This document shows, piece by piece, positions 33,240-35,492 of a DNA stretch of 64,000 nt. Made by a program: the position numbers and the translations under genes. The DNA comes from Ramlibacter cellulosilyticus (GTDB lineage Bacteria; Pseudomonadota; Gammaproteobacteria; Burkholderiales; Burkholderiaceae_C), in the NCBI RefSeq assembly GCF_014297465.1, contig NZ_JACORT010000001.1, forward strand, positions 744,001 to 808,000. The letters are read 5' to 3'. The first letter of the stretch is position 1. Each line of letters opens with the position of its first letter. The notes under the pieces are model-generated. The model was not told where the DNA came from and made no database searches. It saw nothing but the letters and a program-made list of their open reading frames with translations.

Positions 33240-33539
33240 TCAGGCGGCGGCCTGGAGGCCCTTGACCTTCGCGGACAGGCGGGACTTGTCGCGAGCGGCC
33301 TTGTTCTTGTGGAAGATGCCCTTGTCGGCCACCGTGTCCACGATCGCTTGCGCCTTGGCGAAGAGTTCGGTCGCCTTGGCCTTGTCACCGGCGGCGACGG
33401 CCTTCTCGACGTTCTTCACCGCGGTGCGGTACTTGGAGCGCAGCGAGGTGTTCGCTGCGTTGAGCTTGACGTCCTGGCGGGCGCGCTTGCGGCCCGACGC
33501 CAGGCGGGGGTTCTTCTTCTTGGGTTTGGCAGAAGCCAT
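33240..33539 (-). CDS. rpsT: 30S ribosomal protein S20
   Basis: The 99-residue basic protein starts [20 protein letters not shown] and contains [20 protein letters not shown] and [17 protein letters not shown], the S20 pattern. It binds 16S rRNA in the body of the small subunit. It is a single-gene transcript with its own terminator downstream. Its promoter -10 box lies just beside the cloverleaf element described below. Confidence 0.96.
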
Positions 33540-33584
33540 GGGAGATCCTTTACGTGTCTGAGGATGTTGCCAGCAAAGCCGACC

Positions 33585-33590
33585 ATTATA
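33585..33590 (-). promoter_or_regulatory. -10 box of rpsT
   Basis: On the minus strand this is TATAAT, a consensus -10 box, 46 bases upstream of the rpsT ATG. The -35 position (about 33608-33613) falls inside the outer arm of the cloverleaf element and shows no TTGACA-like box. Confidence 0.6.
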
Positions 33591-33600
33591 GCCCGCGCCC

Positions 33601-33874
33601 CAGGAGCCTGCGCGGCAGAGAAACGGGCCTGCGTTGGGCCGAGAAGGGGCCGCAGGCTAGGCGCGGGCGCGGGTCAAGGCTCGACGCCTTGACCCGTGAC
33701 CGTAACGACGCCTGCGGCCCCTTATCGGCCCAACCCGAAGGGCAGGTGCCTGCAAGCCCGCGATGCGTCGTTGCGACCGCCTTGTGTACGGCAAGTACAC
33801 GGCGTCGGCCGCGCCTAGCCTCGCGGGCTTGCAGGCACCTGCGCAGGCCCGTTTCTCTGCCGCGCAGGCTCCTG
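33601..33874. repeat. Cloverleaf-forming nested inverted repeat
   Basis: Outer stem: 33601-33633 pairs perfectly with 33842-33874 (33 bases). Arm 1: 33634-33657 pairs with 33710-33733 (23 of 24), enclosing an 11-base hairpin (33670-33680 with 33686-33696). Mini-hairpin CCCGAAGGG spans 33734-33742. Arm 2: 33743-33763 pairs perfectly with 33821-33841 (21 bases), enclosing a hairpin around GTGTAC/GTACAC. The stems abut with no unpaired bases, giving a complete four-way junction. The element lies between the divergent rpsT and murJ genes. Confidence 0.92.
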
Positions 33875-33926
33875 TCCTACGCTCCCGCGGGGCGACCGCC
33901 CGAACCGCAGGGCTACACTCGCGGCG

Positions 33927-35492
33927 GTGAGCCTGTTCAAAGCCGCCTCCACCGTCTCCCTCCTCACCCTCGCGTCCCGCGTCACCGGCCTGGTCCGGGA
34001 CGTCCTGTTCGCCTCCTTCTTCGGCGTCTCGGCGCTCACCGACGCCTTCTACGTCGCCTTCCGCATCCCCAACCTGTTCCGCCGCATCTTCGGCGAAGGG
34101 GCCTTCAGCCAGGCGTTCGTTCCGGTGCTGGCCAGCGTCCGCACGACCGAAGGGGACGCCGGCGCGAAGAACCTCGTGGACCACGTGTCCACCGTGCTGC
34201 TCTGGACGCTGGTGGTCCTGTGCATCCTGGGCGTGGTCGGCGCGCCGCTGATGGTGTGGGCGCTGGCGAGCGGCCTGCAGAAGGACCCGCACGCCTACGA
34301 CGCCGCCGTGCTCATGACCCGCTGGATGTTCCCCTACATCGGCTTCATGTCGCTGGTGGCGCTGGCGGGCGGCATCCTCAACACCTGGAAGAAGTTCGCC
34401 GTGCCCGCGGCCTCGCCGGTGCTGCTGAACCTCTGCATGATCGCCTCCATCGCGCTCGCGGCGCCCTGGTTCCGCAGCATCGGCATCGAACCGATCTACT
34501 CGCAAGCCATCGGCGTGATGGCGGGCGGGGTGCTGCAGCTGGCGATCCAGGTGCCGGCGCTGCGCCGCATCGGCATGTGGCCGCGCATCGGCGTGGCGTT
34601 CTCCGGCCTGCGCGCGGCGTGGAACGACCCGTCGACGCGCAAGATCCTCGGCCTGATGCTGCCGGCGCTGCTCGGGGTCAGCGTCGCGCAGATTTCCTTG
34701 CTCATCAACACGCAGATCGCCTCCTGGCTGCCCGCGGGCAGCGTGAGCTGGCTGAACAATGCCGACCGCCTGATGGAATTCCCGACGGCGCTGCTCGGAG
34801 TCGCGCTCGGGGTCGTGCTCATGCCGCAGCTCGCGGCGGCGCGCGCCAGCCAGGACGAGGAGCGCTACTCCGGCATGCTGGACTGGGGCCTGCGCCTCGT
34901 GGTGCTGCTCGCGATCCCGAGCTCGGTGGCGCTGCTGGTCTTCGCCGCGCCGCTGGTGGCGACGCTGTTCCACTACGGCGCCTTCAAGGACAGCGACGTG
35001 GGCCAGGTCGCCTTCGCGCTCGCCGGCTACGGCACGGGGCTGCTGGGGCTGGTCGCGATCAAGGTGCTGGCGCCCGGCTACTACGCCAACCACGACATGA
35101 AGACGCCGATGAAGATCGCGATCGCGGCGCTCGTCGTCACGCAGCTGCTGAATGCGGTGCTGGTGCCTTTCCTCCAGCACGCGGGGCTCGCCCTGTCGAT
35201 CGGCATCGGCGCGCTGGTCAACGCGGGCGCGCTGCTCGTGGGGCTGCTGCGCCGGGGCAGCTACAAGCCGCGGCCGGGATGGCTCGTCTTCGCGCTGCAG
35301 GTGCTCGCGGCCTCCGCGCTGCTCGCGGTGTTCCTCACCTGGGCCGCGCATGCCTTCCCCTGGACGGCATGGCGCGTGGAGCCGTGGAGGCGCGCCGGCA
35401 TGATGGCCGCGATGCTCGCCGGCGCGATGGTCCTCTACTTCGGCGCATTGCTCGCGGCGGGCGTGAAGCTGCGCCAGTTTGTCACGCGCTGA
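33927..35492 (+). CDS. murJ: Lipid II flippase MurJ
   Basis: The 521-residue inner-membrane protein has about 14 helices and the MurJ start SLFKAASTVSLLTLASRVTG followed by DAFYVAFRIPNLFRRIFGEG and AFSQAFVPVL. It flips the lipid-linked peptidoglycan precursor to the periplasm. The GTG at 33927 is fixed by the family start. No Shine-Dalgarno is visible; TACACT at 33914-33919 could be a -10 box so close that the mRNA would be nearly leaderless. The cloverleaf element ends 52 bases upstream. Confidence 0.95.
   Translation: MSLFKAASTVSLLTLASRVTGLVRDVLFASFFGVSALTDAFYVAFRIPNLFRRIFGEGAFSQAFVPVLASVRTTEGDAGAKNLVDHVSTVLLWTLVVLCILGVVGAPLMVWALASGLQKDPHAYDAAVLMTRWMFPYIGFMSLVALAGGILNTWKKFAVPAASPVLLNLCMIASIALAAPWFRSIGIEPIYSQAIGVMAGGVLQLAIQVPALRRIGMWPRIGVAFSGLRAAWNDPSTRKILGLMLPALLGVSVAQISLLINTQIASWLPAGSVSWLNNADRLMEFPTALLGVALGVVLMPQLAAARASQDEERYSGMLDWGLRLVVLLAIPSSVALLVFAAPLVATLFHYGAFKDSDVGQVAFALAGYGTGLLGLVAIKVLAPGYYANHDMKTPMKIAIAALVVTQLLNAVLVPFLQHAGLALSIGIGALVNAGALLVGLLRRGSYKPRPGWLVFALQVLAASALLAVFLTWAAHAFPWTAWRVEPWRRAGMMAAMLAGAMVLYFGALLAAGVKLRQFVTR

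Follow-up and report, generated by a model that had tools for sequence, protein, structure and literature searches.

The gap between rpsT and murJ of Ramlibacter cellulosilyticus is occupied by an element of about 270 bp, in which ends of the IS1182 family of insertion sequences (IS) enclose a pair of inverted hairpin arms with a mini-hairpin between them. The element is a MITE, being multi-copy, about 270 bp in length, without a transposase gene, and having IS1182-type ends and, at a sister copy, a TA duplication. The arm module is common to elements with IS1182-, IS5- and IS630-like ends. These data are best explained by a MITE with IS1182 ends that was moved in trans and whose arms are functional as folded single strands, and this reading is considered probable. 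The features of the element and its neighbours in the window, i.e. the whole stretch of 64,000 nucleotides that was analysed, are as follows.

33240..33539, minus strand: rpsT (PF01649), neighbour outside the element
33601..33633, plus strand: left terminal inverted repeat, 5' side of the outer stem; CA (target-TA remnant) followed by GGAGCCTGCGCGGCAGA..., of which about 19 nt are identical with the ends of the IS1182 family
33634..33733, plus strand: arm 1, hairpin module, motif strand plus
33654..33664, plus strand: 5' half of the arm 1 internal-loop motif, AGGCTAGGCGC
33670..33696, plus strand: arm 1 apical hairpin
33702..33711, plus strand: 3' half of the arm 1 internal-loop motif, GTAACGACGC
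33734..33742, no strand assigned: mini-hairpin CCCGAAGGG between the arms; its three pairs are invariant among the aligned copies
33743..33841, minus strand: arm 2, related to arm 1 in inverted orientation, motif strand minus
33764..33821, minus strand: arm 2 internal-loop motif and apical hairpin; exact match to AGGCWAGGCGC-N22..50-GYAACGMSGCA, with 0 matches in 100 shuffles
33842..33874, minus strand: right terminal inverted repeat, 3' side of the outer stem, with target-TA remnant TG
33927..35492, plus strand: murJ (PF03023), neighbour outside the element

A four-way cloverleaf with a flush junction had been proposed in an earlier sequence-only reading of this DNA, and the fold was confirmed, with 92 of the 93 listed pairs standard. 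The outer inverted repeat (33601-33633 with 33842-33874) is paired throughout its 33 bp. The stem of arm 1 (33634-33657 with 33710-33733) includes a single G.A mismatch in 24 positions, and that of arm 2 (33743-33763 with 33821-33841) has 21 bp and no mismatch. The apical hairpins of arm 1 (33670-33680 paired with 33686-33696) and arm 2 (33784-33800) are borne out, as is the mini-hairpin, and zero unpaired bases lie where the helices meet. The complementarities between the arms that had been pointed out are present; they follow from the relationship of the two arms, arm 2 resembling arm 1 in inverted orientation. The DNA fold of 33581-33894 has an energy of -155.8 kcal/mol (z -17.1), as compared with a mean of -80.95 (sd 4.38) for 100 dinucleotide shuffles, of which 0 reach the native energy. 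The extent of 274 bp stood only in part: the insert proper is slightly shorter, and the full extent corresponds to a core GGAG...CTCC plus one target TA per side. At the window element the two TA copies read CA (left) and TG (right), which still pair; the duplication at this copy is therefore not clean.

Of the possibilities raised earlier for the cloverleaf, that of a non-autonomous mobile DNA proved right, as further copies, compensatory changes and empty sites were all found. The genome of origin carries five full copies, and an arm covariance model identified in it 10 arms forming 5 inverted pairs. The element was matched in 33 of 99 genomes (its own included), all but one of them in Ramlibacter; among plasmids, no match to the window copy was found. 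Thirty-five copies were found in total, and 33 full copies were aligned, the two with matches ending before an element end being left out. Base-paired cells make up 96.1% of 3,045 in this alignment (shuffle mean 86.6; slid versions ≤45.5). Both sides are altered in 53 of the 93 pairs (shuffles 26.8, sd 2.0; slid versions ≤11), where the counts of double changes are not independent events, the aligned copies sharing descent. Double changes were also present at 30 of 34 arm pairs in a set of 25 arms from several end classes.

In most of the 35 copies the terminal sequence is TAGGAGNC..., and it is frequently flanked by C and G, which gives CTAG. A pattern search of 97 genomes revealed element-type ends 1,550 bp apart in genome G019, which is the spacing of an IS. 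The open frame between them encodes an IS1182-family transposase (433 aa; NF033551, 384 bits), and the ends of this IS1182-family element are TAGGAGYCTGCGCGGCAGA. About 19 nt of the terminal repeat are common to the MITE and the IS1182-family element at locus L263, and in G033 element-type ends adjoin IS1182 pieces. Ends of this type are also found on short deletion derivatives that retain fragments of the IS1182 gene, and on stem-only pieces 54-57 bp long. Two of the stem-only pieces, with both ends and no arms, lie at L267:419-475 and L268:426-479. Three further short elements of the genus (L264:478-967, L275:513-980 and L262:518-1356) have IS1182-type ends with CTCCCTC...GAGAGGG nearby; L264 and L275 contain pieces of the IS1182 transposase gene and therefore look like ordinary deletion derivatives. 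A near-perfect palindrome, TAGGGCGTGTTAACACGTCCTAG at L178:6141-6158, looks like bare transposon ends.

Origin of the MITE itself as an internal-deletion derivative of IS1182 was ruled against, since its core has no arm match in the interior of L263 or L260 at ≤1 mismatch per half. At the same threshold the arm is absent from five autonomous ISs; a looser scan of ISs (2 mismatches per half, no stem test) gave scattered matches that were treated as chance.

Empty sites in relatives had been proposed as a check. The copy at L002 has TA on both sides, and the element-free relatives G022, G013 and G025 have one CTAG there; the site is also empty in G020 and G029, where it is diverged. The plasmid empty site for L191 is strongly diverged. 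Between rpsT and murJ, 12 of 14 relatives have a short gap leading straight into murJ and no element. In G020 the flanks are one base apart. Outside these 12 are G022 (L196), with the flanks 38 bases apart, and G009 (L208), with about 900 bp between the two genes.

An IS1182-family transposase above the cut-off was found in 10 of the 59 genomes searched, including 5 of the 36 from the genus, whereas the own genome gave no match, and neither did carriers such as G007, G009, G010, G013, G016 and G029. The host genome of a MITE typically, though not necessarily, encodes a transposase with matching ends. This absence lowers confidence in the best explanation, and the copies in the own genome are now probably stranded or were moved by an unrecognised relative.

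The general form of the arm is CA-GGCWAGGCGC-hairpin-GYAACGMSGC-A-TG. The pattern AGGCWAGGCGC-N22..50-GYAACGMSGCA matched at least 119 stretches of genome contigs. The 80 titled rows among the matches listed are mostly from Beta- and Gammaproteobacteria, with a few MAGs labelled otherwise, and the genera among the matches listed include Azotobacter, Stutzerimonas, Pseudomonas, Salinisphaera, Cupriavidus, Variovorax and others. The arm pattern was present in 13 of 398 genomes from the phylum, a set that includes the own genome; this is an undercount because the pattern is exact, and the reversed-pattern control gave 0. A blastn search of E. coli genomes with one Pseudomonas-type copy (a nucleotide query, not a motif search) gave no match, and phages gave none for such a copy.

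The ends surrounding these arms differ. Arms were found between ends CTAGGGTCTGTTCCCGTTTCG, which match an 861-bp IS5-family element, and between ends CTAGTGTCCTGTCCCGyAAAT, which match 1,165-bp IS630-family elements; about ten end types were distinguished by eye in 101 rows. These rows collapse to 90 elements, of which 48 are of 255-296 bp, 31 of 150-175 bp and 9 of 205-250 bp, with 2 others. The sizes fit two arms in the 255-296 bp class and one arm in the 165-bp class. Of the 90, 51 have TA at each of the two ends, as located by a crude method. The occurrence of the same arms between the ends of unrelated transposons suggests that the folded arms themselves do something.

The mismatches in the arm stems are unevenly distributed. 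In 121 distinct but related arms (left out were duplicates, arms close to a sequence end and arms in which under 13 of the 18 stem positions pair), G.T on the motif strand outnumbers A.C by 130 to 26; G.T prevails in 65 arms and A.C in 14. A wide set of 71 arms gave 90 and 17, respectively. The bias is strongest close to the motif (105 to 24 from position 4 outwards), weak in the apical hairpins (35 to 21) and absent from the outer stem (12 to 13). An asymmetric internal loop is kept in each arm, and its variable bases co-vary: A/C occurs in 84, T/A in 67, T/C in 1 and other combinations in 4 of 156 arms, the recruiting pattern having set the permitted letters and left their combination free. 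The 29 matches from the 398-genome scan comprise 15 T/A, 13 A/C and 1 T/C. Since the loop bases co-vary and G.T is favoured over A.C on one strand, the arms seem to act as folded single strands, and since they are inverted, their working strands are opposite. This single-strand signature of the arms concerns the core. Movement as a folded single strand, which had been suggested earlier, is not thereby demonstrated: the element has the ends, and the TA duplication, of a DDE transposon.

It had also been suggested that the structure controls both neighbouring promoters. Both rpsT and murJ point away from the element, the GTG start of murJ is 52 bp from one edge, and a minus-strand TATAAT (33590-33585) lies 10 bp from the other edge on the rpsT side. 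However, a simple scan of 33500-33960 revealed no sigma-70-like hexamer pair, copies lie at many different sites, and the relatives examined lack the element between rpsT and murJ. As judged by flanking frames picked with a GC3 heuristic, 17 of 33 copies lie between convergent, 11 between tandem and only 5 between divergent frames. Dual promoter control is thus unsupported, the varied placement and the missing hexamer pair ruling against it as the main reading.

The same placement bears on the form in which the arms might act. If they act as RNA, read-through from either flank would meet the arm in motif sense first, and the folded RNA would shield, cut or end the message, making insertion near stops tolerable. 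The wobble bias would be the same in this case, G.U in RNA predicting what G.T does in single-stranded DNA. Placement between convergent frames in about half of the copies by the heuristic call, together with 19 of 66 flanking frames that terminate in the element's own TAG, is in line with such a role; however, CTAG targets located at TAG stops also predict convergent placement. Furthermore, the simple scan of 33500-33960 found no terminator-like site, and Rfam gave no match at gathering score to the element, either at the window copy or at 10 loci, which rules against a known structured RNA. Action as RNA is therefore regarded as possible though rather doubtful.

Alternatively, the arms may be functionless, with template switching during replication keeping the palindromes perfect and recombination swapping cores between elements. 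Hairpins are generally prone to template-switch correction. Single arms have been lost in two Ramlibacter copies, L025 (without arm 2) and L054 (without arm 1), and both losses look like slippage between short repeats. However, the arms compared retain the asymmetric loop without correction, with co-variation of its two bases, the arm stems show a strand-biased wobble that is absent from the outer stem, and one core beneath unrelated ends is unexpected for passive filler. Lack of function is for these reasons thought unlikely.

The letters of the arm core, AAGGCG..CGCCGCAT, resemble those of the E. coli REP core, and DNA is tentatively preferred over RNA because of this resemblance. Published work on REP/REPIN sequences and their RAYTs (PMC8266576, PMC3733652) describes strand-specific hairpins, often in inverted pairs. 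The E. coli REP hairpin has an AA-GC mismatch needed by TnpA-REP (PMC8266576). The wobble bias and the co-varying loop of the arms would be consistent with a mismatched hairpin acting on one strand. The arms differ from the REPs and REPINs of those sources in being about 100 nt long, with an extra apical hairpin, DDE-type ends around them, no tag and no linked RAYT found. The REP dimers nested in palindromes, GTAG-15 of A. variabilis and CGTC-1 of H. neapolitanus, have, like the present element, a hairpin pair inside a palindromic shell. In PMC3733652 this is a remark on two species, whereas here the IS families of the ends are identified, many genera are involved and the loop is conserved.

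A REPIN-like element whose transposon-like ends are incidental and which is moved by a RAYT, i.e. an HUH tyrosine transposase, would account for the inverted hairpin pair and for the similarity of the core to that of E. coli REP with its AA-GC mismatch (PMC8266576). It would also suit the several carriers that have no IS1182 transposase and yet possess a Y1 gene. Nevertheless, a REP-type (Y1) tyrosine transposase is encoded in 35 of the 36 genomes of the genus, carriers and non-carriers alike, and the 30 Y1 loci scanned have 0 arms by the full motif and stem test, which left none of the scattered matches of a looser scan. By eye, neither a GTAG nor a CGTC tag is present at the foot of the arms, which abut the junction. 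Given ends like those of DDE transposons and a duplicated TA, this origin appears highly unlikely; a RAYT as the mobiliser is unsupported, and the REP resemblance is taken as a lead, with no claim of membership. One REP-associated tyrosine transposase gene (L239:1462-2160) is bounded by an unrelated inverted repeat, AATTGGGGTCAGATTCC.

In the preferred reading, an IS1182-family transposase would have moved the element in trans into the TA inside CTAG. The target would often be a TAG stop codon, which the TA duplication and the first G of the element would rebuild, and the insertion would therefore be mild. Each arm would be read in the folded, single-stranded state on the strand that carries its motif (plus for arm 1, minus for arm 2) by a putative hairpin-recognising protein acting via the asymmetric internal loop. 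Most likely it would be read as DNA that becomes single-stranded during replication, after the manner of REP hairpins. Such reading would give the element an advantage, which would explain the same core under unrelated transposon ends. A bolder version, put forward tentatively and rather doubtful, makes the arm an independent hairpin parasite, akin to REP. It would spread across bacteria under borrowed ends, taken from any transposon with CTAG targets that the host has active at the time (IS1182, IS5, IS630 and more), and a single conserved protein would read its folded single strand on either strand.

MITEs are usually regarded as deletion relics of one IS. A preference for CTAG has reportedly been seen in IS630-family elements. 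ISKpn6, an IS1182-family element of Klebsiella plasmids, resembles the present element in having ends TAGGAGYCTGCGCGGCAGA in a CTAG-like setting, but it is autonomous, 1.5 kb long and armless at ≤1 mismatch per half. Insertion of IS630-family elements at TA with TA duplication is described in PMC2170065. CTAG-inserting MITEs are likewise known: MITEPsy1 of Pseudomonas syringae duplicates CTAG or YTAA (PMC3189936), and such bacterial MITEs are, like the present element, short and gene-less with IS-like terminal repeats. They differ from it in the core, which here is a conserved folded module common to unrelated end families. No description of the shared arm module was found in the open-access literature searched, from which six exact sequence strings were likewise absent. 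If a folded core is indeed kept by selection while carried under ends from three or more unrelated families of transposase, MITE interiors would be able to be functional and transferable.

The complete genome G007, a member of the genus, has 69 arm matches under more than one end family (L055, L304) and no IS1182-family transposase.
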